From assembly GCA_938048455.1 (NCBI GenBank), contig CALIUY010000036.1, forward strand, positions 1-64,000: DNA of 64,000 bases. The letters are read 5' to 3'. The stretch comes from an uncultured Desulfobacterales bacterium. GTDB lineage: Bacteria; Desulfobacterota; Desulfobacteria; Desulfobacterales; SpSt-501. The notes beneath the pieces are model-generated. The model had not been told where the DNA came from and searched no databases. It was given only the letters and a program-made list of their open reading frames with translations. The position numbers were made by a program, and so were the translations under genes. Shown here piece by piece: positions 8,504-57,593 of the stretch (position 1 is its first letter; each line of letters begins with the position of its first letter).

Positions 8504-11029
<2,526 letters not shown>

Positions 11030-11072
11030 GGACGTCGCCGATCCTTTCCGCGGGACTCCCCGCACAGCGACG

Positions 11073-11101
11073 ATTATACCAGAACGGGGTTGCGGCTCCA
11101 A
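11073..11101 (-). promoter_or_regulatory. Sigma-70 promoter of secA
   Basis: On the minus strand TTGGAG (11101-11096), a 17-base spacer and a perfect TATAAT (11078-11073), preceded by TGG as an extended -10. Predicted transcription start lies about 35-40 bases upstream of the secA ATG. Confidence 0.75.
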
Positions 11102-11183
11102 CCGCTTTTGCGGGGCGGAGCCGCCGCCCGTCGATCACGGGTCGAGCGCCGGGCCCGGGGGACCGGGGCCCAGGTCGGTCGGG

Positions 11184-12134
11184 TCAGTTCAGGAAGTATT
11201 TTTCAGGATTTACGGGTACTCCGTGGAGGGCGACCTCGTAGTGCACGTGCGGGCCGGTGCTGGTGCCGGAATTGCCGACGAGGGCGATCACGTCCCAGCG
11301 CTGGACGCGCTCGCCTTGCTGCTTGAGCAGGCGGCTGCAGTGGCCGTAAGTCGTGGTCAGGCCGTGGCCGTGGTCGATGACGATCGTTTTCCCGAGCAGG
11401 CCCTTGATCCCCGCAAAGGTGACCACACCGGAGGCGGTCGCGTGGATCGGGGTCCCTTCCCGGGCGGAGATGTCGATGCCGCGGTGAAATTCGCGCACGT
11501 TGGTGAAAGGGTTGATGCGGTGCTCGAAGCGCGAGGAGATGAAGTGCTCGGTGAAGGGGTCGATCGGCCGGATGGTGGGCGTGGCGGCGAGTACGGAGCG
11601 TTTTTGTTCGAGGTGGGCGACCACCGCCTGGAAGCCCGCTTCCTGGTTCGCCGCCGCGGCCGCCAACTGCCCGAGCTGGCTTTTCATCTCGCGCATCAAG
11701 CTCGATTTTCCTTCGCCGAGGGCGATCTTGGGGTCCATGGCCTGGGGCACCGCCCCGCCCACCCCGAAGAGCTGGCCCGGATCGGCGCGACGCTCGAGAT
11801 CGGCCAGAAGGCGGATTTTTTTCTCGAACTCGTGCAGGCCGAGCAGTCGGTCCTTTAAGCGGTTGATCTCGCCGGCAAAATCCCCGATCAAGGAGCGCTG
11901 CAGCTCGATTTCGCGCTCGCGGACGGAGAGCCGCTCCTGGAGCTCGCGTTCGCGGGCGCCGGCGAAGACGGCGCCGCGCTTGAGAGAGGCATAGTCCCAC
12001 GCCCCCCAGACGGCGAGACAGAAAAAGACGGCCGCGGCGGTGAGCATCGACCCCAGCAGGCGGCGGGAGACGCAGAACTGCCGCGCCGGGGCCCCGGAGT
12101 TCGTGAGAACGACCAAGGAGATTCTTCTGCGCAT
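11184..12134 (-). CDS. Membrane-anchored M23-family (LytM-type) peptidase
   Basis: A 316-residue protein with a cytoplasmic basic start, one membrane segment (about 28-46), a coiled-coil region (about 58-115) and a carboxy-terminal M23 domain (about 205-310). The zinc and catalytic motifs HRGID and HVHYE are present, so it should be an active periplasmic endopeptidase cutting peptidoglycan cross-links, or a divisome regulator. It is preceded by an AAGGAGG ribosome site, an unusually structured leader and a strong promoter. Confidence 0.9.
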   Translation of the reverse strand: MRRRISLVVLTNSGAPARQFCVSRRLLGSMLTAAAVFFCLAVWGAWDYASLKRGAVFAGARERELQERLSVREREIELQRSLIGDFAGEINRLKDRLLGLHEFEKKIRLLADLERRADPGQLFGVGGAVPQAMDPKIALGEGKSSLMREMKSQLGQLAAAAANQEAGFQAVVAHLEQKRSVLAATPTIRPIDPFTEHFISSRFEHRINPFTNVREFHRGIDISAREGTPIHATASGVVTFAGIKGLLGKTIVIDHGHGLTTTYGHCSRLLKQQGERVQRWDVIALVGNSGTSTGPHVHYEVALHGVPVNPEKYFLN

Positions 12135-12298
12135 GGTGCGTCGCCTCCTTCGGGTTTCCGTCGGCGAAAGAAGCCTTCCGCCGGCGGCCGCTCACGGCCG
12201 CGCCAGCACATGGAATCATCCCGGGGGATGACTCCGGGGAGGGCAACGGGCTTTCGCCCGCGTCCGGGGTCGCTCCCTGGACTCAAAACGCTGAAGAT
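12135..12298 (-). promoter_or_regulatory. Highly structured 5' leader of the M23 peptidase gene
   Basis: Between the predicted start of transcription and the ATG, the minus-strand RNA forms four consecutive hairpins with four-base loops. They are 12261-12246 (GAAA loop, 6 bp), 12235-12212 (CCCG loop, 10 bp with one G-U), 12201-12184 (TGAG loop, 7 bp) and 12183-12162 (GCTT loop, 9 bp with one G-U). The ribosome site AAGGAGG follows the last one. I recognise no known riboswitch family. It could be a riboswitch, a protein-binding leader or an mRNA stabiliser. Confidence 0.6.
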
Positions 12299-12304
12299 TT
12301 CCCG

Positions 12305-12334
12305 TCTATAGAAAGCCCGCCCCGGTCCTGTCAA
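12305..12334 (-). promoter_or_regulatory. Sigma-70 promoter of the M23 peptidase gene
   Basis: On the minus strand a perfect TTGACA (12334-12329), an 18-base spacer and TATAGA (12310-12305). It sits just downstream of the folD stop, separating the two transcription units, and would yield a leader of about 164 bases. Confidence 0.7.
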
Positions 12335-12358
12335 GGGGCGGGCCGGATGTACGGCGCT

Positions 12359-13267
12359 TCAGGCGAGGCCGAGTTTGAACTTGAGCGAGCGGAGCGTGTT
12401 TTGCATCAGCATGGTGATCGTCATCGGGCCGACCCCTCCGGGAACGGGGGTGATCCAGCCGGCGATCTCCTTGGCGGCCTCGAAATCGACGTCCCCCTTC
12501 AGGATGGGGACCTTCTGGCCGGTCTTCTCGCTCACCTTTTCGCCCACCCGGTTCACGCCGACGTCGATCACGCAGGCCCCCGGTTTGATCCACTCGGGCT
12601 TGACCAGGCCGGGGACGCCGGCGGCGACGATGAGGATGTCGGCGCGCTTGCAGTGGGAGGCCATGTCGCGCGTTCCGGTGTGGACGACGGTGACCGTCGC
12701 GTTCGCCCCGCGCGCCTTCTGCAGCATCATCATGGCGATCGGCTTGCCGACGATGTTCGAGCGCCCCACGACCACGACCTCGGCGCCGTCGGTCGGAACC
12801 CCGGCACGCACGATCAGCTCCTGGATGCCCGCCGGGGTGCAGGGGGGGAACCTGACCTCGGAGCCCCCGATCATCAGCCGGCCGACATTGACCGGATGGA
12901 AGCCGTCCACGTCTTTGTCCGGGTCGATGGCGTTCAAGACCTTCTTTTCGTTGATGTGCTTGGGCAGGGGAAGCTGGACGAGGATCCCGTGAATCGTGTC
13001 GTCGCGGTTGTAGCGGTCGATCAGCGCGAGCAGTTCCTGCTCGGAAATGCCGACCGGCTGGTTGTCCTGGATCTCCTTGAAACCGAGGCGATGCGCGGTC
13101 TTGATCTTGAGCGTCACGTAGGAGACCGAGGCGGGGTTTTCGCCCACCAGGATGGTGACGAGCCCCGGGACGACCCCGTGTTTGGCCTTGATCGCCTGGA
13201 CTTCGGCGGCGAGCTCCTCGAGGATCGTCTCGCGGATTTCGGTGCCCAGAATCAGCTTGGCGGTCAT
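12359..13267 (-). CDS. folD: Methylenetetrahydrofolate dehydrogenase/cyclohydrolase FolD
   Basis: A 302-residue bifunctional enzyme interconverting 5,10-methylene-THF, methenyl-THF and 10-formyl-THF. Visible signatures are YVTLKIKTA with the catalytic lysine, QLPLPKHIN, the dinucleotide-binding VVVGRSNIVGKP and the carboxy-terminal PVPGGVGPMT. Length is typical. It follows argC on the same strand after 73 bases. The methylene-THF made by the glycine cleavage system encoded at 30403-33608 would feed it. Confidence 0.96.
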   Translation of the reverse strand: MTAKLILGTEIRETILEELAAEVQAIKAKHGVVPGLVTILVGENPASVSYVTLKIKTAHRLGFKEIQDNQPVGISEQELLALIDRYNRDDTIHGILVQLPLPKHINEKKVLNAIDPDKDVDGFHPVNVGRLMIGGSEVRFPPCTPAGIQELIVRAGVPTDGAEVVVVGRSNIVGKPIAMMMLQKARGANATVTVVHTGTRDMASHCKRADILIVAAGVPGLVKPEWIKPGACVIDVGVNRVGEKVSEKTGQKVPILKGDVDFEAAKEIAGWITPVPGGVGPMTITMLMQNTLRSLKFKLGLA

Positions 13268-13340
13268 CGCTTTCCCCTCCTTTGCCGGTGTGATGGAAGT
13301 GCAAACGGGCGGGCGGCGCGGAAGCCCCGGGACGTTGCCC

Positions 13341-14378
13341 TCAAAGCGGGGCGGGGACGGCGTCCAGGCCCGCGGTTTCCTCGAACCCGCACATCAGGTT
13401 GAGGTTCTGGACGGCCTGCCCGGCCGCCCCTTTGCCCAGGTTGTCGATCGCCGAAAGGAGAACGAGGCGGCGGTTTCGCTCGTCGAGGACGAAACCGATG
13501 TCGCAAAAATTCGTTCCCCGCACGTGCAAGGTGTCGGGCACGAACCCCGGCGGCCGGATACGGACGAAAGGACGGCCGCGGTAGAAGCCCTCCAGGCAAT
13601 CGCGCAGCCGGGAGGCGTTCACCCCGGGGACGGGCCGGGCGTAGATCGTCGAGAGCATGCCGCGGCTCATCGGAACGAGGTGCGGTACGAAGGTCAGCCC
13701 CACGGGGCGGCCCGCCTCGCGGGCGAGCACCATCTCCATCTCCGGAGCGTGGCGATGGCCGGCGACGCTGTAGGCTTTGAAGGATTCGGCCACCTCGCAG
13801 AAATGGACGCGCAACGACGGCGAACGCCCGGCCCCGCTCACCCCCGACTTGGAGTCGGCGATGATCCCTTCGGCTTCGATCAGCCCCTCGCGCAACAGCG
13901 GAATGAGGGGCAACAGGATGCTCGTCGGGTAGCAGCCGGGGTTGCCGACGAGGGCCGCGGCGGCGATCTCCCGCGCGTAGACCTCGGCCAGGCCGTAGAC
14001 GGAGCGGGCAAGAAGCTCCGGGGCGGCGTGGGGCTGATAGACGCGCTCGTAAAGAGCGGGGTCGCGGAAGCGGAAATCGGCCGAGAGGTCGATCAGGCGC
14101 ACTCCGGCGCCGAGAAGCGCCGGGGCGATCTTCATGGGCATCTTGTGCGGCAGCGCGGTGAAGACGACGTCGGCCGCGGCGGCGAGTCGCGCCGCCTCGA
14201 TCTCCTCGCAGAGAAGCTCGAGGCGGCCGGCGAACGCCGGGAAGGCCTCGGTGAAGCGCTTGCCGGCGAACTGCCGCGAGGTGAGGATCGTCAGCCGCAC
14301 TCCGGGATGCGAGGAGAGCAGCCGGACCAGCTCGGCGCCGGCATAGCCGGTCGCCCCCGCCACGGCGACGCGCACCAT
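13341..14378 (-). CDS. argC: N-acetyl-gamma-glutamyl-phosphate reductase
   Basis: A 345-residue ArgC of the arginine pathway, reducing N-acetylglutamyl phosphate to the semialdehyde. It shows the NADP fold start VAVAGATGYAG, the active-site Cys149 in GNPGCYPTS, and the conserved HRHAPE and FVPHLVPM segments. It is likely co-transcribed with folD downstream; other arg genes are not in the window. Confidence 0.96.
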   Translation of the reverse strand: MVRVAVAGATGYAGAELVRLLSSHPGVRLTILTSRQFAGKRFTEAFPAFAGRLELLCEEIEAARLAAAADVVFTALPHKMPMKIAPALLGAGVRLIDLSADFRFRDPALYERVYQPHAAPELLARSVYGLAEVYAREIAAAALVGNPGCYPTSILLPLIPLLREGLIEAEGIIADSKSGVSGAGRSPSLRVHFCEVAESFKAYSVAGHRHAPEMEMVLAREAGRPVGLTFVPHLVPMSRGMLSTIYARPVPGVNASRLRDCLEGFYRGRPFVRIRPPGFVPDTLHVRGTNFCDIGFVLDERNRRLVLLSAIDNLGKGAAGQAVQNLNLMCGFEETAGLDAVPAPL

Positions 14379-14454
14379 CGTAAGGAAGGCCTCCCTGCCG
14401 GATCTTCAATTCGGTTCGGATCCTTAGCAGAGCAGGCCGGCAAGCGCAAGCGCT

Positions 14455-15255
14455 TCAGGGAGCGGCGCCTTCCAGGGCGATCACCCAGCCGGAGGGCGCG
14501 CGCGGAGCCGAGAGCCGCGCGATGACGGCGCGGACGCTGCGGCCGCCCAGCTCGGCGAAGAGGGCGCGCGGCCGAGCCCGCGGCTCGCGCGCGGTCTCCT
14601 TGAGCAACCCGATGAGTTCGGCGGCCCGGGCGGGGGGAAAGAGCTCGATCACGGGGCGGTTGAGGATCGCGACCAGCGCCCGGCCGAGAAGTTCAAGGGC
14701 GGCCGGGTTGGCGTTCAAGAGGCGCGTGTCGCGGTCGAGAACCAGCAGGCCGGTTGCCAGCGAGTCGAGCACCGACCGGTGGAACTCGAGCGACTCGAGC
14801 AGCTCGAGCGCATCGCGGCGCGGAAAGACGCCGCCCGTCTGCAAAATCTTTTTCTCGCCGGCGGCGGCCGCGCAGGGCAGCTTCTCCAGCCGGTCGAGGA
14901 ACTCGTGCAGCCGGCCCTCGAGCTTCTCGAGCGGTCCCTTGGCGATGTAGAAGTCGGCGCCCAGGGTTTCCAGCTCGTCCATCTGCTCGATCACCGTCCC
15001 GGAGACCGCCACCAGGGGGCCGCAGCTGCCGTTGAAGCGGCTTCTTGCCGCCTCGAACAGGCGCCGCCCCTCGACCTTGGGCATCACCAGATCGGCGAAG
15101 AGGACGTCGTAGGGTCCCGCATCGAGCCCGGCGATCCCCTGTTTTCCGTCGTAGGCCCGGGCGACGCGGTAGCCGCGCCGCTCGAGCAGGCGGGCCAGGA
15201 ATTCCACGAAGAACACATCGCTGTCCACGACGAGGGCTGTGCGTTCCATGTCCAA
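14455..15255 (-). CDS. Response-regulator receiver protein with a PAS domain
   Basis: A 266-residue protein with a receiver domain (about 5-125, phospho-acceptor Asp55 in the FADLVMPK segment) followed by a PAS-like domain (about 150-260, SVLDSLATGLLVLDRDTRLLNANPAA split over the sensor core). There is no DNA-binding or enzymatic output domain. It starts 22 bases past the stop of the GspE/PilB-type ATPase gene and may regulate that machine, but this rests on position only. No partner kinase is seen. Confidence 0.8.
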   Translation of the reverse strand: MDMERTALVVDSDVFFVEFLARLLERRGYRVARAYDGKQGIAGLDAGPYDVLFADLVMPKVEGRRLFEAARSRFNGSCGPLVAVSGTVIEQMDELETLGADFYIAKGPLEKLEGRLHEFLDRLEKLPCAAAAGEKKILQTGGVFPRRDALELLESLEFHRSVLDSLATGLLVLDRDTRLLNANPAALELLGRALVAILNRPVIELFPPARAAELIGLLKETAREPRARPRALFAELGGRSVRAVIARLSAPRAPSGWVIALEGAAP

Positions 15256-15277
15256 AATCCCTCCCCCGGTTTTCGTC

Positions 15278-17695
15278 TCAGTCCACGCAGACGCGACGCA
15301 CCTCGCGCACGGTGGTGACGCCGGCGATCGTCTTCTGGATGCCGTCCTGCTTGAGGGTCGTCATGCCGTCGGCGGCCGCCTGCCGCGCCAGCTCGTAGGA
15401 GGTCGCGTTCTTCTTGATCAGAAGCTTCACCGCCGGGGTCGCCTCCATCAACTCGTGGATGCCGATCCGGCCGCGGAAGCCGGAGCCGTTGCACTTTTCG
15501 CAGCCCGCCGCACGTTTGAGGGCGAAATCCGGTCCGTAGGTCCAGCCCGCGGCGTCGAAGCGCTCCGGGCCGTAGTCCTGCCGCAGGTCTTCGAACTCCT
15601 GCGCCGCGGGATGATAGCTCTCGGTGCAGTTCGGGCAGAGCCGCCGCACGAGCCGCTGGCCGAGCACGCCCAGGAAGGCGTCGGAGATGTTGAGGGCGTT
15701 CATCCCCATGTCGAGCAGACGCGTCAGGGTCTCCGGGGCGTTGTTCGTGTGCAGGGTGGAGAGCACGAGGTGCCCGGTCAGCGCCGCCTGGAGCGCGATC
15801 GTGGCCGTCTCCTGGTCGCGCATCTCGCCGATCATGATGATGTCCGGGTCGAGGCGCAAAAAGCCGCGCATGACGCGGGCGAAATCGAGTCCGATCTTCG
15901 GCCGCACCTGCACCTGGCGCAGCCCCGGCTGGGTGATCTCGACGGGGTCCTCGGCGGTCCAGATCTTCACCCCGGGGTGGTTGATGTGCCCCAAGATCGC
16001 ATGCAGGGTCGTCGTCTTGCCCGAGCCGGTGGGGCCCACGCAGAGCAGCATGCCGTAAGGGCGGGTGATCAGTTTTTTCAGGACCGCGAGGTTGCGCTCG
16101 TTCAGACCGATCTCCTCGAGCTTGAGCGAGCTCGTGCGCGTGAGGATCCGCAGCACGGCGTCCTCGAAGCGGCCGGCCGTGGGCATGGTGGACAGCCGGA
16201 GCTCGAACTCGGGGATCCCCTTGCGCCGCATCTTGATCTTGCCGTCCTGGGGGAGCCGTTTCTCGGCGATGTCGAGCTCGGCCATGATCTTCAGCCGCGA
16301 GAGGATCGCCGGGGCCATCGCGTTGGGCACCTGGAGGTACTCGTGACAGACGCCGTCGGTGCGAAAGCGGATCGTGGTCTTGCGCGTGATGACCGAGGGC
16401 TCGATGTGGATGTCGGAGGCGTTGTTGCGGAAGGCGCTGATCAGCACCTGGTCCACGAACTTGACGACCTGGCTCGAGGACTCGTCGAGCGCCGGGCGGT
16501 CGTCGAGGTTTTCCTCCTCCTCCTCAAAGCTCACGTCCGGAATGAGGACATCCAGATCGTCGGCCGCAGGGGCTTCGACCGCCTGCTCCGCCCGCGGGTC
16601 GAAGAAGTGGCGGATGTACTGCTCGACATGCTCCTTGATCCCCACCGAAATCGTGATCTTCTGGTTGCCCATCAGGGCGCGGATGTGATCGGTCTTGCGC
16701 AGATCCTTGGGGTCGTCGACCAGGATCTCGATCCCGCTCTTGTCCCAGCGCAGCGGCACCCAGACGTAATAGAGCAGAAAGGATTTCTTCAGATTGCCGA
16801 TCAGCTCGTAGGGCACGGGCAGCTCGGGGTCGAAGACCCGAAAGGGGCAGCCGTAGTAAAGGGAGAGCGAGCGGCCCAGCTCCTGGAGGTCGACCTTGAA
16901 GCGGTCGACGAGGATGTGCTCGACGCTCTTGTTCGTTTTCTTCGCGATCGCCAGCGCCTCCTGGAGCTGCTGGGTGCTGACGATGCGGTGGCGCAGGAGA
17001 TAATCGTAGCGCGAGCCGCCGCAGAGCTTCCCCCGCAGGGCGTTCAGGCGGGAGGCGAGTTCGGCGTTGCCGGGGTCGAGTTCGACCGCCTCGCGGTAGG
17101 CCTCGAGGGCGGCATCCAGGAGATCCCGGCGCTCAAGCTCGCGGGCAAGCCAGCCGCGCAGCGCGGCCGCTTCGGGGGCCTGGAGGCCCAGGCGCTCGAT
17201 GACCCGGCCGGCCTTCTCGAGGATGCGCGGTCCGTCGCGCGATTCGAGAACACAGGCGAGAAAATCGCAGGCGAGGCGCGCGGGCGTGCAGTCGGATTTC
17301 GAGAAGTCGAGGGCGGCGGGATCGAGGGTGAAGATCTTTTCGTACTCCGCCGCCGCCTCCTCGAAGAGCCCCAGTTCCTTGAGCGCGGCGGCACCGTCGA
17401 TCAGGGCGGGAATGTCGCTCTGGCAGGCGAGCGTCTTCTTGAAAAGGCTGATCTCCTCCTGGGAGAGCCCGCAACTCTCCTTCTCCTGGACCTCGCGCAG
17501 CTCGCGCTCGATCGCCGCGATCCGGGAGGCGATCTCGGCCGCCCGGGCCGGCGGCGGGGCGCCGTTTTGGGGCTGAGAAAGCGTGCGATAGAGCTGAAGC
17601 GCCTCCTCGAGCAGACCCATCGCATGGCAGGTTTCGGCCTCCTTGAGCTTGAGGTCGAACTCGGAGGAAGGCGTCGTCGGAGATTCGCTGGCCAT
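15278..17695 (-). CDS. GspE/PilB-type secretion or pilus ATPase with N-terminal TPR region
   Basis: An 805-residue protein. Residues about 10-235 are helical with TPR-like repeats (LLEEALQLY, LDAALEAYREAVELDPGN). A GspE N-terminal domain (about 240-385) follows, then an acidic linker and the hexameric ATPase core. The core has Walker A GPTGSGKTTT, TAEDPVE, IGEMRDQETA (Walker B) and STLHTNNAPET. CPNC and CEKCNG near the carboxy end make the zinc-binding region typical of GspE. It powers type II secretion or type IV pilus assembly. No other secretion genes are adjacent, and the TPR extension is unusual. Confidence 0.88.
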   Translation of the reverse strand: MASESPTTPSSEFDLKLKEAETCHAMGLLEEALQLYRTLSQPQNGAPPPARAAEIASRIAAIERELREVQEKESCGLSQEEISLFKKTLACQSDIPALIDGAAALKELGLFEEAAAEYEKIFTLDPAALDFSKSDCTPARLACDFLACVLESRDGPRILEKAGRVIERLGLQAPEAAALRGWLARELERRDLLDAALEAYREAVELDPGNAELASRLNALRGKLCGGSRYDYLLRHRIVSTQQLQEALAIAKKTNKSVEHILVDRFKVDLQELGRSLSLYYGCPFRVFDPELPVPYELIGNLKKSFLLYYVWVPLRWDKSGIEILVDDPKDLRKTDHIRALMGNQKITISVGIKEHVEQYIRHFFDPRAEQAVEAPAADDLDVLIPDVSFEEEEENLDDRPALDESSSQVVKFVDQVLISAFRNNASDIHIEPSVITRKTTIRFRTDGVCHEYLQVPNAMAPAILSRLKIMAELDIAEKRLPQDGKIKMRRKGIPEFELRLSTMPTAGRFEDAVLRILTRTSSLKLEEIGLNERNLAVLKKLITRPYGMLLCVGPTGSGKTTTLHAILGHINHPGVKIWTAEDPVEITQPGLRQVQVRPKIGLDFARVMRGFLRLDPDIIMIGEMRDQETATIALQAALTGHLVLSTLHTNNAPETLTRLLDMGMNALNISDAFLGVLGQRLVRRLCPNCTESYHPAAQEFEDLRQDYGPERFDAAGWTYGPDFALKRAAGCEKCNGSGFRGRIGIHELMEATPAVKLLIKKNATSYELARQAAADGMTTLKQDGIQKTIAGVTTVREVRRVCVD

Positions 17696-30402: not shown

Positions 30403-30801
30403 ATGAAACCGTTGCAGGAACTGAGCTTCCCCGAAGAGCTGCGCTACGTCGAAAGCCACGAATGGGTGCGCGTCGAAAACGGCGTGGCGCGGATCGGCAT
30501 CACCGATTACGCGCAAGACCAGCTGGGGGATGTGGTCTTCGTGGAACTGCCGGCGGCCGGCAAGACGCTTGCCCGCGGGGCGGCTTTCGGCAGCGTCGAA
30601 TCCGTGAAGGCCGTCTCCGAGCTCTACATGCCGCTCTCCGGCCGCGTGGTCGAGGCGAACCCGGCCCTGGATTCCTCCCCCGAACTCGTCAACCGCAGCC
30701 CCTACGGCGAGGGCTGGATGATCCGCGTCGAACCCTCCGACCCCGCCGAGCTGGCCGGGCTGCTCTCCGCCGCCGAGTACCGCGAACGGCTGAAAGGATG
30801 A
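30403..30801 (+). CDS. gcvH: Glycine cleavage system H protein
   Basis: A 132-residue lipoyl carrier. The lipoylated lysine is Lys69 in ESVKAVSEL, followed by the normal SGRVVEANP turn. It shuttles the aminomethyl group between P and T proteins. A GGAGAG ribosome site precedes the start, and gcvPA begins 3 bases after its stop. lipB and lipA in the same operon would lipoylate it. This is the intact H protein; two H-like relatives at 54761-56726 differ at this site. Confidence 0.97.
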   Translation: MKPLQELSFPEELRYVESHEWVRVENGVARIGITDYAQDQLGDVVFVELPAAGKTLARGAAFGSVESVKAVSELYMPLSGRVVEANPALDSSPELVNRSPYGEGWMIRVEPSDPAELAGLLSAAEYRERLKG

Positions 30802-50972: not shown

Positions 50973-51685
50973 GGCGGGGAAACGAGCGCTCCGTCCCGCA
51001 GGGTGAGCCTGCGCGTGGCGACCCCGTCGGCGAGATCGCTGTGGGTGGCGAGAAGCACGGTGATCCGGTCTTCGCGGTTCAACCGGGCGAGGAGCTCAAT
51101 CACCGCCGACCCGTTTCGGCTGTCGAGGTTGCCCGTCGGCTCGTCGGCCAGCACCAGAGCCGGATGGTTGATGACCGCCCGGGCGATGGCGACCCGCTGC
51201 ATCTCCCCCCCGGACAGTCGATCCGCCGGGTGCCGGGCGCGACCGGAAAGCCCCAGACGCTCGAGAAGTTCTTCCGCCCTGCGGCGCGCCTCGCGCTCGT
51301 CGCGGCCGGCAAGCAGCGCCGGCAGGCAGATGTTTTCGATCACGTTCAGGGTCGGCAGGAGGTTGAAGGATTGAAAGACCATGCCGACCGCCTCGCGCCG
51401 GAAACGCGTGAGGTCCCCCGGGGGCCGTCCCGAAAGCCGGCGGCCGGCCACGGTGAGCTCGCCCGCGCTCGGGGTGTCGAGCGCGGCAAGCAGGGCAAGC
51501 AGGGTGCTCTTCCCCGAACCGCTCGGCCCTTTCAGAACGACGAATTCGCCGCGGGCGATGTCGAGGTTCAGCCCCGCCACGCCGGTCACGGTCCCGGCCC
51601 CCAAGGGGTAGATGCGGGTCAGGTTGCGGGCGCAGACGATCGGTTCGGCAGTGGCTTCCGGATCCGGCACAGGGGCATCCCTCAC
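50960..51685 (-). CDS. LolD/MacB-type ABC ATPase (AttE-like)
   Basis: A 241-residue ATPase with Walker A GPSGSGKST, signature LSGGEMQRVAIARA and Walker B VLADEPTGNLDS. It is the partner of the FtsX-type permease with which it overlaps. Its ATG overlaps the stop of the methyltransferase gene (ATGA). Confidence 0.94.
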   Translation of the reverse strand: MRDAPVPDPEATAEPIVCARNLTRIYPLGAGTVTGVAGLNLDIARGEFVVLKGPSGSGKSTLLALLAALDTPSAGELTVAGRRLSGRPPGDLTRFRREAVGMVFQSFNLLPTLNVIENICLPALLAGRDEREARRRAEELLERLGLSGRARHPADRLSGGEMQRVAIARAVINHPALVLADEPTGNLDSRNGSAVIELLARLNREDRITVLLATHSDLADGVATRRLTLRDGALVSPPCGD

Positions 51686-52911
51686 CGCGGCGGTGCGCCT
51701 CCGGGCGCTGTCTTTCGTCCCCAGACGGCGTAGAGCGGGTCGGAAAACGGGGTCGTCCCCGCGTAGCGGTCGTCTGCGGGCCGGGGCAGGCCGCGCACGG
51801 AAAAGGTTTCCATCCGTTCATACTCCCCCGAATCACGGAAAACTTCAAGGACCAGACCCATACGTTCGAACTCGTGAAGCTCGGTCCAGAGGCGTACGGC
51901 CTTGGGGGGAAAGTAGCGGTTGGAGAACACCTGGACAAAGAGACCGCCCGGCCGCAGGATGCGGGCGACCTCGGCGAAGACCTCGCGCGGCCGCACGAGG
52001 TATTCGAAGGAGACGGTCGAGATGACGGCGTCGAAGGATCCGCCGGGGAAGGGCAGCGCGGGGGCGGCGTTCAAGTCGTGAACCAAACGGCGATCGGCCC
52101 GCGGGTTGGCGGCGAGCTCCTCCTCGTTCAGCCCGAGCACGCTGAGCTCGGCGAGGGACAGCTCCGGGGGCAGATGGGAGATCCAGCTTCCCATGAGGTC
52201 GAGCACCCGGTCGCCGGCAGAAAGCAGCCGGCCGTAGAGGCGCTGGACCTCGGCCAGGGCACGGGCGTCGAGATGGGCGACCAAGCGCGGCCGGCGATAG
52301 AAGAGGGTGTCCTCCCGTTCGTCCGGCCGCGCAAAGGCGCCTGCGGTGAAAAAATCGGTCGGCTGTCCCCCGGCACGCGCCTGCATGCCCGGACCGTCGA
52401 GCAGGCGCTCGGTCCAGTCGACGACGCTCCCGCCGCGCTCGCTGGATTTCCGCGCCAGGCCGCTTACCTTCGCTTCGAGTTCGAGGGGGATCCCGGCGAG
52501 CGGATGGTTCAAGTCGGCAAGCAGATCATCGCGCCCGACCTCGAGACAGCGGAAGGGGAGAAGATTCTCGGGGAAAACGCCGGGCAGGCCGCGGAGCAGG
52601 CCGCGGGGGTAGAAGCGGCCGCGGCGGGGTACGATCCGGCTTCCGTCGGCGAGCGTGCTCTGGAAATCGGCGGTGCCGAGGCGGTGAATCCGATCCTGCC
52701 GGCGCGGCGGGAGCAGCTCGCCGGGATCAAAAGTGCGCCGCAGGAGGCGCGGTTCCGGATCGGCGGCGAGCGTCTCCCGGATTCCCGGCGGGAGAAGATC
52801 GCGCCAGAAGTTGACGCGGGGGGCGAAAAGAGACTCGGTGTGCAGGATGCCGTCTTTTTGCCAGCGGAGGGTGAACTCGAAATCCGCCGTGTAACGGTCG
52901 AGAAAATCCAT
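51682..52911 (-). CDS. FKBP/SlyD-like domain fused to a SAM methyltransferase
   Basis: A 409-residue protein. Residues about 55-150 resemble an FKBP/SlyD-type module, seen in the segment LNHPLAGIPLELEAKV, close to the SlyD NHPLAG signature, although catalytic aromatic residues are not evident. Residues about 225-400 are a class I methyltransferase: VLDLMGSWISHLP, then FDAVISTVSFEYLVRP. The protein has no signal peptide. It heads a ten-gene operon after a 91-base divergent spacer. The substrate is unknown; a lipid or small-molecule target is only a guess from context. Confidence 0.75.
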   Translation of the reverse strand: MDFLDRYTADFEFTLRWQKDGILHTESLFAPRVNFWRDLLPPGIRETLAADPEPRLLRRTFDPGELLPPRRQDRIHRLGTADFQSTLADGSRIVPRRGRFYPRGLLRGLPGVFPENLLPFRCLEVGRDDLLADLNHPLAGIPLELEAKVSGLARKSSERGGSVVDWTERLLDGPGMQARAGGQPTDFFTAGAFARPDEREDTLFYRRPRLVAHLDARALAEVQRLYGRLLSAGDRVLDLMGSWISHLPPELSLAELSVLGLNEEELAANPRADRRLVHDLNAAPALPFPGGSFDAVISTVSFEYLVRPREVFAEVARILRPGGLFVQVFSNRYFPPKAVRLWTELHEFERMGLVLEVFRDSGEYERMETFSVRGLPRPADDRYAGTTPFSDPLYAVWGRKTAPGGAPPR

Positions 52912-52958
52912 GAGACGTTTCTTCCTTTCCGGGGAAGGCTTTTCATTTCGGCGCCGGG

Positions 52959-52987
52959 AGGATAAGAACGATCATCCCATCCGCCAA
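52959..52987 (-). promoter_or_regulatory. Putative promoter of the ten-gene lipid/ABC operon
   Basis: On the minus strand TTGGCG (52987-52982), a 17-base spacer and TATCCT (52964-52959) lie about 50 bases upstream of the methyltransferase ATG, inside the spacer shared with the divergent lipoprotein gene. Confidence 0.45.
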
Positions 52988-53002
52988 GCGGGAGGAGAGG
53001 CC

Positions 53003-54028
53003 ATGCACGGAAAAAAACCCGCCCTGCTCGCCATGCTCGTGATCGCCTTCGCCGCGGCGGCAGGCGCCTGCCGTGCCCCGGGGGCCCCCGGCGGGGATGC
53101 CGGGCCGAGGCCCGCGCTCCGCGGCACCCTCACCTACCCGCAGCGGATGGCGCTTCCGCCGGGGGCGATCGTCACCGTTGCGCTCGTCGAGCAGCGCGGC
53201 AAAGCCACCTCGGCGGTGCTGCTTCGCGAAACGAGCTTTCCCGCGCCGAACGAGATGCCGATCGGCTTCCAGCTGCCCTATGACCCGGCGGCGATCGACC
53301 CGTCGCGCCACTATGCGCTCCGGGCGCGGATCACGGATGCCCGGGGGGCGATCCACTGGGCGACCCGCAGGCCCGTTCCGGTCCTCACCCACGGGCACGG
53401 CGAGACGGCGGAGATCGCGCTCGTTCCGGCCCTGGCGAGCATCCGGAGCGCCCCGCCGCCGACCCTCTTCTTCGAATGCCCGGAGCGCTCTTTCGCCCTG
53501 CGTCATGAGGGGGACGGGGTGCGTCTTTATCTCTTGGAAGGAGAACTCCTGCTGCGCGAAACCCCGGCCGCATCCGGGGCGAAGTACAGCGACGGGAAAA
53601 ACCTCTTCCGGCAGAAGGGGGAGGAGGCGCTGCTTGAGCTCGAAGGGCGTCCCCCGGCCCGTTGCCGCGAAAACCCGCAGCGGGCCGTGTGGGAGGATGC
53701 GCGCCTGAACGGGGTCGATTTCCGCGCCGTGGGCAACGAACCCGGCTGGCACCTGGAAATCCGCGAGGAGGGGGAAGCCGCCGCGGCGATCGATCTCGTG
53801 ACGATGTACGGGGAGCACTACTACAGCTTCCCCGGCGCCCGCCGCGAGGCGGTGCCGGAAGCGGCGGGAAGGCTGCGCTACACGGCGGCCTTGGGGAAGC
53901 ACCGGCTGGTCGTGATGCTGGAGCAGGGCGAGTGCATCGACACGATGAGCGGGGAGCGCTTCGCGACCCGGGTCGAGGTGCGCCTCGACCACGAAATTTA
54001 CCGCGGCTGCGGCCGCCGCCTGCGTTGA
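53003..54028 (+). CDS. Three-domain lipoprotein: YbaY-like, MliC-like and COG3650-like
   Basis: A 341-residue protein with a lipoprotein signal peptide (lipobox AGAC, Cys23). Residues about 38-145 match the YbaY/YscW-type fold (RGTLTYPQRMALPPGAIVTV). Residues about 155-235 match MliC, the membrane-bound C-type lysozyme inhibitor (FFECPERSFALRHEGDGVRLYL). Residues about 238-335 match a COG3650-like domain (GVDFRAVGNEPGWHLEI). The ATG at 53003 has a GGGAGGAGAGG site. It likely protects the envelope against lysozyme; it starts divergently from the lipid operon. Confidence 0.82.
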   Translation: MHGKKPALLAMLVIAFAAAAGACRAPGAPGGDAGPRPALRGTLTYPQRMALPPGAIVTVALVEQRGKATSAVLLRETSFPAPNEMPIGFQLPYDPAAIDPSRHYALRARITDARGAIHWATRRPVPVLTHGHGETAEIALVPALASIRSAPPPTLFFECPERSFALRHEGDGVRLYLLEGELLLRETPAASGAKYSDGKNLFRQKGEEALLELEGRPPARCRENPQRAVWEDARLNGVDFRAVGNEPGWHLEIREEGEAAAAIDLVTMYGEHYYSFPGARREAVPEAAGRLRYTAALGKHRLVVMLEQGECIDTMSGERFATRVEVRLDHEIYRGCGRRLR

Positions 54029-54213: not shown

Positions 54214-54293
54214 ATGCGAGAAGAATGGAGAGTTTTCCGTGAGGGGTGGAAGGTGTATTGAGTTCAATTCAACCGAAAGGAGGGAAAAAGGAA

Positions 54294-54725
54294 TTGAGGA
54301 AAACGTTTGCCGTATTCGTGATGTCAGCTCTGTTGTTAGGGTTCTCCGGTGAAAGCCACGCCTTTTTTTGGCTTTTCTTCGGAAGCGGAGGAGGCAAAGG
54401 CGGATCACGGGTTGCAGCGGTGAATACCGCCGAGGTCTTTTCCACGGGGGCGGCCGGTGCCGAGTTCGCGAAGTACGTCACCGCTCTTCAGAATGACTCC
54501 ACCGGCGGCACAAATTCACAGAACATCGAGATCGTGGAGCAACCCGTTCTGCATCTCCTTGTCGGCGAGCAGGAAACCGACAACCGGATAAGTTATGTTC
54601 CGCCTCAAGAAAATGAGGTGCCTCCGGAACAAACGCCGGTGCGTGTGCCCGAGCCGGCGACAATGATCCTGCTGGGAGCGGGCCTTCTCGGCATCGCCGC
54701 CTTCAGCCGCAAAAGGATCCGCTGA
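54294..54725 (+). CDS. Small PEP-CTERM sorting-domain protein
   Basis: A 143-residue exported protein. It has a signal peptide (about 1-22, ending SHA), a short Gly-rich then polar body, and a classic tail VPEPATMILLGAGLL...FSRKRIR: PEP motif, membrane helix and basic end. Exosortase and its partners cut at this tail and display the protein in the extracellular matrix. The TTG start is preceded by AAGGAGGG at a 9-base distance; an in-frame ATG at 54246 lacks a site. No exosortase or EPS genes are in the window. Its codon and base use are more AT-rich than its neighbours. Confidence 0.85.
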   Translation: MRKTFAVFVMSALLLGFSGESHAFFWLFFGSGGGKGGSRVAAVNTAEVFSTGAAGAEFAKYVTALQNDSTGGTNSQNIEIVEQPVLHLLVGEQETDNRISYVPPQENEVPPEQTPVRVPEPATMILLGAGLLGIAAFSRKRIR

Positions 54726-54752: not shown

Positions 54753-54783
54753 GTCCGTTGTCAAACGGGCCCCTTTCTTTTTC
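54753..54783 (+). terminator. Terminator of the PEP-CTERM gene
   Basis: A 7-bp stem (one G-U) with loop GTCA followed by CCCTTTCTTTTT. It lies at the convergent end with the H-like gene and overlaps that gene's stop. Confidence 0.5.
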
Positions 54784-55699
54784 GCTGCCGCCGAAAAAAC
54801 CGCCCCGCGAGCTCTTCCCACCGCCCGGCCACAGCGCCCGGAAGGAGCTGCCAGTCGAGAAGCCCGCCGTCGGCCGCCAGAAGACCGCCGCGCTCCGAAA
54901 GAAGAAAAGACAGTCGGCGGCACTCGGCGGCGAGGTGTCGGGCGGCGTCCTGCCCGAGCTTGAGCCGCGAAAGCGCAGCCGCAAGATCCGCGGTCTGCGC
55001 CCGGAGCACCCAGTCGGTCCCGTAGGGGTCCGACACTTCCTTTCCCGCCCGCTCCCGCACCGCAGGGTTCACCGCGGTGACGACGCCCTCCACCGGCGAG
55101 GCAAAAGGGATCTCTCGGCCTTCGCGCAAGGCGCGGAAAGCGGTCCGGCCGCGCCGCAACCGCTCCCCGGTTCGTGCCGCCTCGATCCGCTCCGGGCAAA
55201 GAAGCCGCCAGGCGAAATCATCCAAACCGAGGCGCACCTCGCCTCCCTCGCCGGGCTCGAGCCAGACATGCCCGGGGTGGAGATAGAACCCCTGCGGGAT
55301 CCGCAGCCCCTCGACCGCAAGCTCCGCCACCGCCACCGGGACCGCGGCGACCCGAAACTCCTCGGCGAAATACTGATCGAACTCGCAGCGGCGGCAAAGA
55401 TAGTCCGCGGTGCAAGCCCGGAAGGGGATGCGCCCGACGAGGTGGTGGACGCAGGGCTGCAGGCGGGAGGGCAGCCGCCGCAGGCGGTCCTGCCAGGTCT
55501 CGATCGCCCCCCGCCGGCCGCAGGGCCATCCCCCGTTCAGCCGTATTCGCCGGTTCTCGGCGGCGACACGCCTGAGCGCCCGGTCGAAGGGGCAGACGGA
55601 GCAGCGATAGGCCAGGCGGCAGCCCTTTCTCGGCACCACCCCGGCCTGCATCCACAGACAGGGGGGCGACGAAGATCGGGCGGGCTTTTCAGGCTCCAT
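54761..55699 (-). CDS. H-protein-like protein with two four-cysteine modules (copy 1)
   Basis: A 312-residue protein. Residues 14-36 and 83-105 each read C-x12-C-x5-C-x2-C followed by x-F-D (CSVCPFD and CRRCEFD), a duplicated four-Cys module able to hold zinc or an iron-sulfur cluster. From about residue 138 it aligns to the GcvH hammerhead (HPGHVWLEPGEGGEVRLGLDDFA, then FASPVEGVVTAVNP and DPYGTDWVL). The lipoyl lysine position is not a lysine here (the aligned stretch reads LREGREIPF). About 60 further residues follow. No signal peptide. The ATG has a GGAGG site and overlaps copy 2 by 11 bases. Function unknown; classical glycine cleavage is unlikely. Confidence 0.8.
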   Translation of the reverse strand: MEPEKPARSSSPPCLWMQAGVVPRKGCRLAYRCSVCPFDRALRRVAAENRRIRLNGGWPCGRRGAIETWQDRLRRLPSRLQPCVHHLVGRIPFRACTADYLCRRCEFDQYFAEEFRVAAVPVAVAELAVEGLRIPQGFYLHPGHVWLEPGEGGEVRLGLDDFAWRLLCPERIEAARTGERLRRGRTAFRALREGREIPFASPVEGVVTAVNPAVRERAGKEVSDPYGTDWVLRAQTADLAAALSRLKLGQDAARHLAAECRRLSFLLSERGGLLAADGGLLDWQLLPGAVAGRWEELAGRFFRRQRKRKGPV

Positions 55700-56726
55700 G
55701 GGATCGCCCCCCTCCACTGCGCAGGAATTCGCCCACAAGCCGCTCCCAGCCGAGCCCGGGAAGGGCGCCGTAGATGTCCTCGCCGAGAAGACCGCCGTCC
55801 GCGGCAAGCGGGCCGGCCGTCTCCTCGATCAGCCGCTCAAGCCGGCTGACATCCGCGGTCAGCCACTCCACCACGCCGTCGGCGAAGAGCAACGGCTCGA
55901 GGGCTTTCTTCGGCTCCGGCGGACGGACCAGGAGCAACCAGCCCTCGCCGTAGGGATCCCGGAGCGCCGCCTGCGGCGTTTCCCGTACCTGCGGGTTCGC
56001 CTCCACGACCACCGCCGAAACCGGGGCGAGGACCGAGGCGCTCTTGCCGCGGCGGCGGATCTCGAGAGCGGGCCGGCCCGCGGTCAGCTCCGCCCCGCAC
56101 AGCGGAAGCTCGTAGCCGTCGGCCGCGCCGAAGAGGCGCAGGGCGAAATCATCCAGCCCGATCCGCACCGCACCGCCCGCCTCCACCCGCGCCCAAGTGT
56201 GCCCGGCATGGAAGTGATGATCGAGGGGCACGGCAAAGCCGCGGATCCGCTCCACCGCATGCGGCCCGGCGGAATGCCGCGCACAGAGGACTTCCTCGTA
56301 GAGCTGGTCGAAATCGCAACTCGCGCAGGCGTAATCGTAGGCGCATCTCCGCCCGACGATGCGGCCGGTCAGCGTGTGGCGACAAAGCCGCTCCTGCGGC
56401 GGACGACGGCGCAGGAGATCTTGCCAGCCGGGCTGTTTTCCCGCTTTCGCCCGCTCCTCCATCGCCCGGTCGAAGGCGCAGGTCGGACAATCGTAAAAAT
56501 TCGTGCAGGGCTTGAACTTCACCGCCCCGGAGGCCATCCAGAGGCAGGGCGTCTCCGTCCGCGCCTTCTGATCCGGCCGCACCCGGTAGGCCCGGCCCCC
56601 GAGCACCGTGTCGATGCCCGAGCGATCCCCCGGGGAGATCCCCGGCCGGCTCCAGGTCGATCCGTAACCCACGCTTTCCCGCTTCGCCTTCCCCTTTTCC
56701 GGCTGCGAGTTGTCCCTCTCGCTCAT
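55689..56726 (-). CDS. H-protein-like protein with two four-cysteine modules (copy 2)
   Basis: A 345-residue paralogue of the next gene. Cys61-74-80-83 and Cys115-128-134-137 give the same C-x12-C-x5-C-x2-C-x-F-D spacing twice (CPTCAFD and CASCDFD). The H-like part begins near residue 174 (HAGHTWARVEAGGAVRIGLDDFA) and has APVSAVVVEANP and DPYGEGWLLL. Lys228 in RRGKSAS lies about one residue away from the lipoyl-lysine position, so lipoylation is possible but not clear. The first 50 residues are polar and probably disordered. A GAAAGGAG ribosome site precedes the ATG. First gene of a two-gene operon. Confidence 0.82.
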   Translation of the reverse strand: MSERDNSQPEKGKAKRESVGYGSTWSRPGISPGDRSGIDTVLGGRAYRVRPDQKARTETPCLWMASGAVKFKPCTNFYDCPTCAFDRAMEERAKAGKQPGWQDLLRRRPPQERLCRHTLTGRIVGRRCAYDYACASCDFDQLYEEVLCARHSAGPHAVERIRGFAVPLDHHFHAGHTWARVEAGGAVRIGLDDFALRLFGAADGYELPLCGAELTAGRPALEIRRRGKSASVLAPVSAVVVEANPQVRETPQAALRDPYGEGWLLLVRPPEPKKALEPLLFADGVVEWLTADVSRLERLIEETAGPLAADGGLLGEDIYGALPGLGWERLVGEFLRSGGGRSHGA

Positions 56727-57125
56727 GGCTCTTCTCCTTTCGCTGGACTGCCGATCTTCAAGGCAAGTCCCGTGCCGCAGTCCCGCCTAAAAAAACAACC
56801 ATTTGTTTTCAATAGACAAATCAAAAGACCCCGGCTTCGGCGGCATGCGCCTGGCTTCCGTGCAGGTGTGGTCTTTCGCCACACTTCGAGGCGTCCGCGA
56901 AGGAGGATTTGAACGGATTGTGGCAGAGGTTGAAGGGGTTATCCTGCCGTAGGGTTCTGCGACGCCCTTTGGGGGATATTCCGGCGAAGACTGCGGCGGC
57001 GATCGTGGACAGGGGCGCCTTGATCGCCTGCAGAATTCCTGCTAAGCGCAAAGAAGGCCGCCGCGGACGGATCTCCGGCCGGGCTTCACCCCTTCAACCC
57101 GATCAACCCGCAAAGGAGGGTGGCC
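56727..57125. other. 399-base spacer without a convincing gene
   Basis: It holds an AT-rich patch with the inverted repeat ATTTGT-N9-ACAAAT (56801-56821), placed where the promoter of the H-like operon (minus) should be, and a GTGTGG-N7-CCACAC hairpin (56866-56884). A 76-codon minus-strand frame (56821-57051) shows no family features. The ribosome site of the ferritin-like gene lies at its right end. I see nothing else. Confidence 0.5.
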
Positions 57126-57593
57126 ATGAATTTCGGGAGCCTCGATGAAATTCTCGCGTTCGCCATATCCAAGGAAAAGGAGGCGGTGCAGTTTTATTCC
57201 CGGCTTGCCAAAGAGGAGAGCTTCTCGGGGGCCCGCGAAATGTTCACGGAGTTCGCCCGCGAAGAGGGCAAGCACGAAAGGCTGCTGGTCGAGTTCAAGA
57301 CCCGGGGCACCGCCGAAGCCGTGCGCGATTATCCGCTCAAGTGGATCAAGGACATCAAGCGCAGCGACTTCGCCGTCGAAATCGAATACCGACCGGGCAT
57401 GGCTTACAACGAGATTCTCATGCTGGCGATGAAGCGGGAGGAAAAGGCGCTCAAGCTCTACAACGAGTTTCTGCGCCGGGCGGAGACGGCCGAGGCGAAA
57501 AAGCTCTTCCAGGTGCTCTGCCAGGAGGAGGCCAAACACAAACTGGCGCTCGAAACCCTCTACGACGACTACATGGCGAAGATGGGGGATTGA
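57126..57593 (+). CDS. Ferritin-like (rubrerythrin-type) di-iron protein
   Basis: A 155-residue four-helix protein. The metal-ligand pattern EKEAVQFYSRLA, EEGKHERLL, KREEKALKLYNEF and CQEEAKHKLALE gives two ExxH pairs and matching Glu residues, as in rubrerythrin ferritin-like domains. There is no rubredoxin domain, so it is not a full rubrerythrin. It probably handles peroxide or iron. The ATG at 57126 was chosen over a GTG six bases earlier because of an AAGGAGG site. It converges on tag. Confidence 0.9.
   Translation: MNFGSLDEILAFAISKEKEAVQFYSRLAKEESFSGAREMFTEFAREEGKHERLLVEFKTRGTAEAVRDYPLKWIKDIKRSDFAVEIEYRPGMAYNEILMLAMKREEKALKLYNEFLRRAETAEAKKLFQVLCQEEAKHKLALETLYDDYMAKMGD

Follow-up and report, generated by a model that had tools for sequence, protein, structure and literature searches.

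Tandem H-protein-like genes with duplicated four-cysteine modules and no lipoyl lysine: a conserved family with predicted sigma54 control

Two adjacent genes, A and B, in a 64-kb stretch of DNA from an uncultured Desulfobacterales bacterium (the whole analyzed stretch, hereafter the window) encode paralogous proteins which combine an H-protein fold incapable of carrying lipoate with a duplicated four-cysteine module. Comparative analysis established that they represent a real, conserved and wide-ranging family, present in many anaerobes, and not a local oddity. The family itself, its cysteine spacing, the loss of the lipoyl site, the fold, the gene neighborhood, the promoter/enhancer pattern and a fusion of an H-like domain with HdrC were all obtained by computation. 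Among the functional interpretations considered, the one that we prefer, and to which we give an even chance of being correct, is that A and B are sigma54-induced, non-lipoylated adaptor or electron-relay subunits of Hdr/NrfD-type redox complexes, processed by an archaemetzincin.

Results

Both minus-strand open reading frames (ORFs) named in the preliminary description of this DNA were recovered at the same positions. Gene A (55689..56726, minus strand), the upstream member of the pair, encodes an H-protein-like, non-lipoylatable protein of 345 amino acids with two four-cysteine modules, and gene B (54761..55699, minus strand) encodes its 312-aa downstream paralogue. Analysis of ORFs together with an alignment of relatives points to the ATG at 55697-55699, in preference to a TTG at 55807, as the most likely start of B, which places the beginning of this gene over the stop codon region of A with an overlap of 11 bases. 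Purifying selection seems to act on both genes, since dN is well below dS in comparison with their relatives at locus L005 (dN/dS ~0.22 for A, from 0.136/0.612 at 80% identity; ~0.30 for B, from 0.226/0.764 at 69% identity). In a tree of 16 tandem pairs, the A copies cluster with support 1.0, the sole exception being the lineage-specific pair L006, in which the B copy falls among the A copies. Because the A and B clades separate with this support, the duplication is, as judged from the tree, ancient and has been kept in tandem, and this retention makes an A-B hetero-pair plausible. Both proteins are probably cytoplasmic.

Exactly two modules of the form C-x12-C-x5-C-x2-C-x-F-D are present in A and in B alike, which bears out the original description of four duplicated modules with identical spacing; not a single module arose among 100,000 shuffles of each protein. 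In A, module 1 (56469..56546, minus strand; C61-D86) is of the type CLWMxAGVVxxKxC and module 2 (56307..56384, minus strand; C115-D140) of the type CRHxLxGRxxxRxC; in B, the same pattern is found at 55583..55660 (module 1) and 55376..55453 (module 2), both on the minus strand. Modules of the same type are 46% identical between A and B as compared with 26-34% for unlike types, and by this comparison the four modules appear to descend from two old types. The corresponding family consensus is C-[ILV]-W-M-x-A-G-V-[VI]-x2-K-x-C-x3-Y-D-C-x2-C-x-[FY]-D for module 1 and C-R-H-x-[LM]-x2-R-[IV]-x2-R-x-C-x3-Y-x-C-x2-C-[ED]-F-D-Q for module 2. Strong selection on the spacing, which had been proposed from the two sequences, extends to the entire family: far from varying freely among homologues, the cysteines retain the 12/5 spacing in 211 of the 215 modules (13/5 in the remaining 4) that loose spacing limits detected in 184 distinct homologues. 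The modules are, judging from these sequences, probably metal-binding. They gave no Pfam match above cut-off and no PDB sequence match with the module profile. When the double cysteine region was modelled alone (pLDDT 68.9), the CxxC began a helix in both modules; searches with this model of modest confidence by Foldseek and VIA-align returned no match, which neither implies a new fold nor excludes a known family. Lysine-less H-like proteins with different Cys-rich N-terminal parts are encoded elsewhere (L028:816-1670, L030:3050-3979 and L193:8205-8969), from which it follows that replacement of the Cys domain has taken place repeatedly.

The C-terminal part of both proteins matches Pfam GCV_H (9.5e-15 for A, 4.7e-5 for B). 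In A, the H-protein domain comprises residues 163-292 (55851..56240, minus strand); an AlphaFold2 model of residues 163-295 has the form of an H protein with pLDDT above 85-95, its closest structural match being 1htp, the H protein of pea (Z 18.6, with an rmsd of 1.6 across 131 residues). The lipoyl-lysine position is occupied by glycine in both proteins (G227 in A), followed by Lys228 in A and by arginine in B, in keeping with the initial observation of a lysine absent from one protein and shifted by about one residue in the other. The notion of a degenerate lipoyl-carrier fold likewise holds at the family level: among 102 members with the exact module, only three have a lysine at this site, each of them without ESVKA-type surroundings, and most others have Gly, Asp, Glu or Ser. 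That A is lipoylated at K228 seems unlikely, because this position is unconserved, varying among N, K, R, H and other residues.

A GcvH assignment (TIGR00527/PF01597) was ruled out by the loss of the lipoyl lysine and by scores below cut-off: A and B reach 56.7 and 17.6 bits, respectively, against 115.85 required by the NCBIfam gcvH equivalog. The H-protein fold is common to A and GcvH over the full domain, but A and B differ by two extra four-cysteine modules, a C-terminal extension and a location outside the gcv region of the window, where the true GcvH with its ESVKA motif is encoded at 30403. This agrees with the earlier view that the pair does not fit glycine cleavage. Membership in NCBIfam NF045810 (GcvH-related protein) was also rejected, the matches being weak (25.4 and 12.7 bits) and far below the curated cut-off of 150.

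In a sample of 395 genomes of the source phylum, the module profile matched 83, and the full-length profile revealed many tandem pairs within the taxonomic order. A neighborhood survey of 47 loci (46 distinct, as L005 and L158 are one contig) placed, by clustering, archaemetzincin genes at 34 of them and response-regulator or kinase genes at 38. The usual arrangement is a histidine kinase followed by a sigma54-type response regulator and an archaemetzincin in one direction, with the four-cysteine gene(s) convergent with the archaemetzincin. The archaemetzincin family PF07998 is present in 74 of the 83 module-bearing genomes vs. 72 of 312 module-less ones (odds ratio 27, uncorrected for kinship), and the two kinds of genes lie within 8 kb of each other in 39 of the 46 genomes for which both places were listed. 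The association is incomplete in both directions, with no archaemetzincin detected in 9 of the 83 genomes and 72 genomes having an archaemetzincin without the module. Some loci also have MetF/MetV neighbors, and no metal transporter family recurs among the neighborhood clusters of the surveyed loci.

The catalytic motif HExxH-x5-HC is kept in 34/34 neighborhood archaemetzincins, many of which miss the Gly of HExxHxxG; the archaemetzincin of the source genome (PF07998, 67.5 bits) retains HELGHTFGLRHC-x4-C-x-M and C-x2-C. This family (peptidase M54) has been described as rare in bacteria and of unknown biological importance (PMC3427221); in contrast with the stated rarity, it is found in 146 of the 395 sampled genomes. 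The kinase is composed of PAS, HisKA and HATPase domains (Pfam) preceded by a region which is Rossmann-like by sequence; the kinase of Zixibacteria, and of some others, is instead a membrane protein carrying CxxCH motifs. We infer that both kinase types would fit redox sensing.

A predicted sigma54 (-24/-12) promoter, CGGCACGGGACTTGCC (56762..56777, minus strand), is located ~35 bp upstream of the gene A start codon (ATG) and is the sole match to GGCACN5TTGC on either strand of the window. In loci chosen independently of this pattern, the strict motif precedes 21 of 34 two-module first genes, as compared with 4 of the 270 remaining first genes at these loci (odds ratio 107). A relaxed search of the window allowing two mismatches performed no better than chance (48 sites found, 48 expected); the weight of the prediction is carried by the strict pattern and the cross-locus comparison. 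At 89 bp upstream of the promoter element lies a predicted enhancer (UAS), the palindrome TGTGG-N7-CCACA (56867..56883), which has no other exact match in the 3.38-Mb genome. Sites of the form TGTnG-N7-CnACA (9 or 10 of 10 positions) occur upstream in 21 of 29 loci, with 0.4 expected, and in many loci they lie at about -227, -206 and -116. The source genome contains both rpoN and, on contig C33, an AAA+ response regulator. As a DNA pattern, the predicted sigma54 control of the A-B genes is well supported.

Association with Hdr-type subunits is seen in a part of the family. An hdr-like cluster adjoins the four-cysteine gene in L178, L180-L183 and L185, though not in the window; in L178, L182, L183 and L185, the four-cysteine gene comes first, ahead of and co-directional with HdrC-HdrB-HdrA, the identities in L182 being supported by Pfam. 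HdrA-like proteins were recognized by sequence in ~20 of the 47 loci and Pfam-checked in two; many surveyed loci are devoid of Hdr genes. Single-linkage clustering had been too inclusive, placing proteins of the HdrA-like and NrfD-like kinds with the GcvH-like ones; these were separated by sequence and partly by Pfam. One gene among the surveyed loci (L180:5123-6217, plus strand) joins a lysine-less GCV_H domain (1.1e-20) to a 4Fe-4S domain of the HdrC-like type; this fusion gene, the only case seen, is positioned between HdrA-like and HdrB genes and upstream of a four-cysteine gene. Among Acidobacteria, Zixibacteria, Calditrichota and Bacteroidetes, NrfD-like genes accompany lysine-less H-like genes in 25 of 39 loci and archaemetzincin genes do so in 22, as counted by regular expressions in loci of uneven length; neither kind of neighbor was found at loci holding only lipoyl-type GcvH. 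Two long proteins from Bacteroidetes (L040:3920-5608 and L045:5224-7041) have a phosphate-binding-protein-like N-terminus together with a membrane segment and an H-like domain devoid of the lysine, and their loci also hold NrfD-like and archaemetzincin genes.

The pair in the window lacks Hdr, NrfD, kinase and archaemetzincin genes as neighbors. It is flanked by a divergent rubrerythrin-family gene (57120..57593, plus strand; Pfam Rubrerythrin, 7.5e-13) and a convergent PEP-CTERM protein gene (54246..54725, plus strand; Pfam PEP-CTERM, 1.3e-7). A rubrerythrin neighbor is found in 8 surveyed loci, including the intact L159, L165, L166 and L170, and a short gene similar to the PEP-CTERM gene is located between archaemetzincin and the pair in the congeneric L220; PilZ, glycosylase (Tag) and rubrerythrin neighbors of the window also occur beside intact loci, e.g., L166. 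Elsewhere, the window encodes an ordinary-looking envelope protein in which a YscW-family domain is joined to an MliC (lysozyme-inhibitor) domain (52910-54028, plus strand) and a Methyltransf_11-type methyltransferase with a long N-terminal part outside all listed families (51682-52911, minus strand).

The only archaemetzincin of the source genome is on contig C33, together with the regulator and kinase and without four-cysteine genes, while the congeneric L218 and L220 have the pair, archaemetzincin, regulator and kinase all together. On C33 (L092, ~8564-16053), the archaemetzincin, sigma54 regulator and kinase are followed by a second kinase-regulator pair and an AroE-like gene, an order which recurs next to the four-cysteine pair in L218. 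The simplest reading of this synteny is that the locus has been split in the source genome, in which case the regulator must act in trans. An alternative explanation would be an error in metagenome-assembled genome (MAG) binning of one contig; against it, the trio is also missing next to the pair in another genome, G420 (L158, identical to the L005 contig). The tie of the window pair to the kinase/regulator/protease system is drawn from its relatives, congeneric synteny and predicted sites.

Discussion

Overall, the preliminary interpretation stands with respect to selection on the cysteine spacing, a fold free of lipoate and a role apart from glycine cleavage; the conserved genomic context was missing from it. 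This context, combined with the features of the proteins, suggests a mechanism in which a two-component system would sense the redox or respiratory state, its histidine kinase (via a Rossmann-like N-terminal region plus PAS) phosphorylating an NtrC-type regulator, which would bind the TGTnG-N7-CnACA sites and switch on the A-B operon via sigma54; in the source genome, the regulator encoded on C33 would do so in trans. A and B would then hold Zn or Fe-S at their Cys modules (two four-cysteine sites per protein), and their H-protein fold would dock on Hdr-type complexes, or on NrfD-type membrane complexes in other phyla, where they may function as redox-responsive adaptor or electron-relay subunits to be matured or removed by the archaemetzincin. 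We infer the metal, the binding partner, the protease target and the signal of this system. A broader generalization, that the lipoyl-free H-fold with paired four-cysteine sites is a cross-phylum redox-control module, sigma54-induced and policed by archaemetzincin, which provides Hdr and NrfD complexes with an adaptor or gate subunit, is put forward tentatively, as we doubt somewhat that it holds in full.

Among other readings of the same data, A and B may be zinc/metal buffers or sensors, the four sites of each pair binding Zn on an H-fold that serves as scaffold only, in response to metal or thiol-oxidation stress, with archaemetzincin as a Zn-dependent effector. The invariant cysteine spacing and the rubrerythrin neighbor in 8 loci are consistent with such a role, as is the partner protease, which comes from a family of zinc metalloproteases that possess four additional Cys (PMC3427221); however, such a role leaves the Hdr/NrfD neighbors and the GCV_H-HdrC fusion unexplained, and no metal transporter family recurs in the neighborhood clusters. 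We consider it possible but unlikely. The position of archaemetzincin, which usually comes immediately after the genes for the kinase and regulator, allows for a regulatory feedback instead, in which this protein would work on transcription (as a protease or non-proteolytically) and A and B would act as anti-sensors by binding to this protein or to the kinase. A precedent is provided by CarG of M. xanthus, a proteolytically inactive archaemetzincin homologue with a replaced catalytic Glu that acts in transcription (PMC3427221). Unlike CarG, all of the neighborhood archaemetzincins retain the catalytic motif, and we judge this feedback to be distinctly unlikely.

Two further interpretations follow from the relationship with GcvH. 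The H-protein fold with its high structural similarity and the MetF/MetV neighbors at some loci could be reconciled with A and B still being acyl or lipoyl carriers (with a modification of A at K228 or at a Cys) that moonlight in glycine cleavage or one-carbon metabolism, but the prevalence of Gly, Asp, Glu or Ser at the lipoyl position, the variable residue next to it, the scores far under the GcvH cut-offs and the true GcvH at 30403 render this very improbable. If A and B were GcvH duplicates in decay, lacking a specific function, the lost lysine would be accounted for, but this view is contradicted by purifying selection, the ancient A/B split, the strict spacing and the conserved locus, and is hardly credible.

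With respect to known systems, LbpA of the sHdr sulfur-oxidation system, a GcvH-like protein also encoded with Hdr-type subunits, comes closest as an example of an H-like protein that belongs to an Hdr system. Its lipoyl lysine is strictly conserved (PMC6067878), whereas the A/B family has none and is distinguished by four-cysteine modules, a sigma54 two-component system and archaemetzincin; an assignment of A and B as LbpA was rejected on account of the missing lipoyl lysine. A characterized family matching A and B, which would have spoken against the preliminary description, was not found, the literature part of this search covering open-access papers. In the same literature, we found no publications on GcvH-like proteins with NrfD or with archaemetzincin, or on archaemetzincin with a histidine kinase, nor a description of such a redox-control system, and a paper on the sigma54 regulome of D. 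vulgaris makes no mention of A/B-type genes.

If the preferred reading of A and B as subunits of Hdr/NrfD-type complexes is true, an H-protein fold devoid of its cofactor has found new use as a structural or redox component of complexes which are central to energy conservation in anaerobes. Fold-based annotation would name such proteins glycine cleavage H proteins, despite their lack of lipoate capacity and their belonging to a different system. Bacterial archaemetzincins, a family whose role is unknown (PMC3427221), would thereby be placed in a genetic context, with a regulator and candidate partners of their own.
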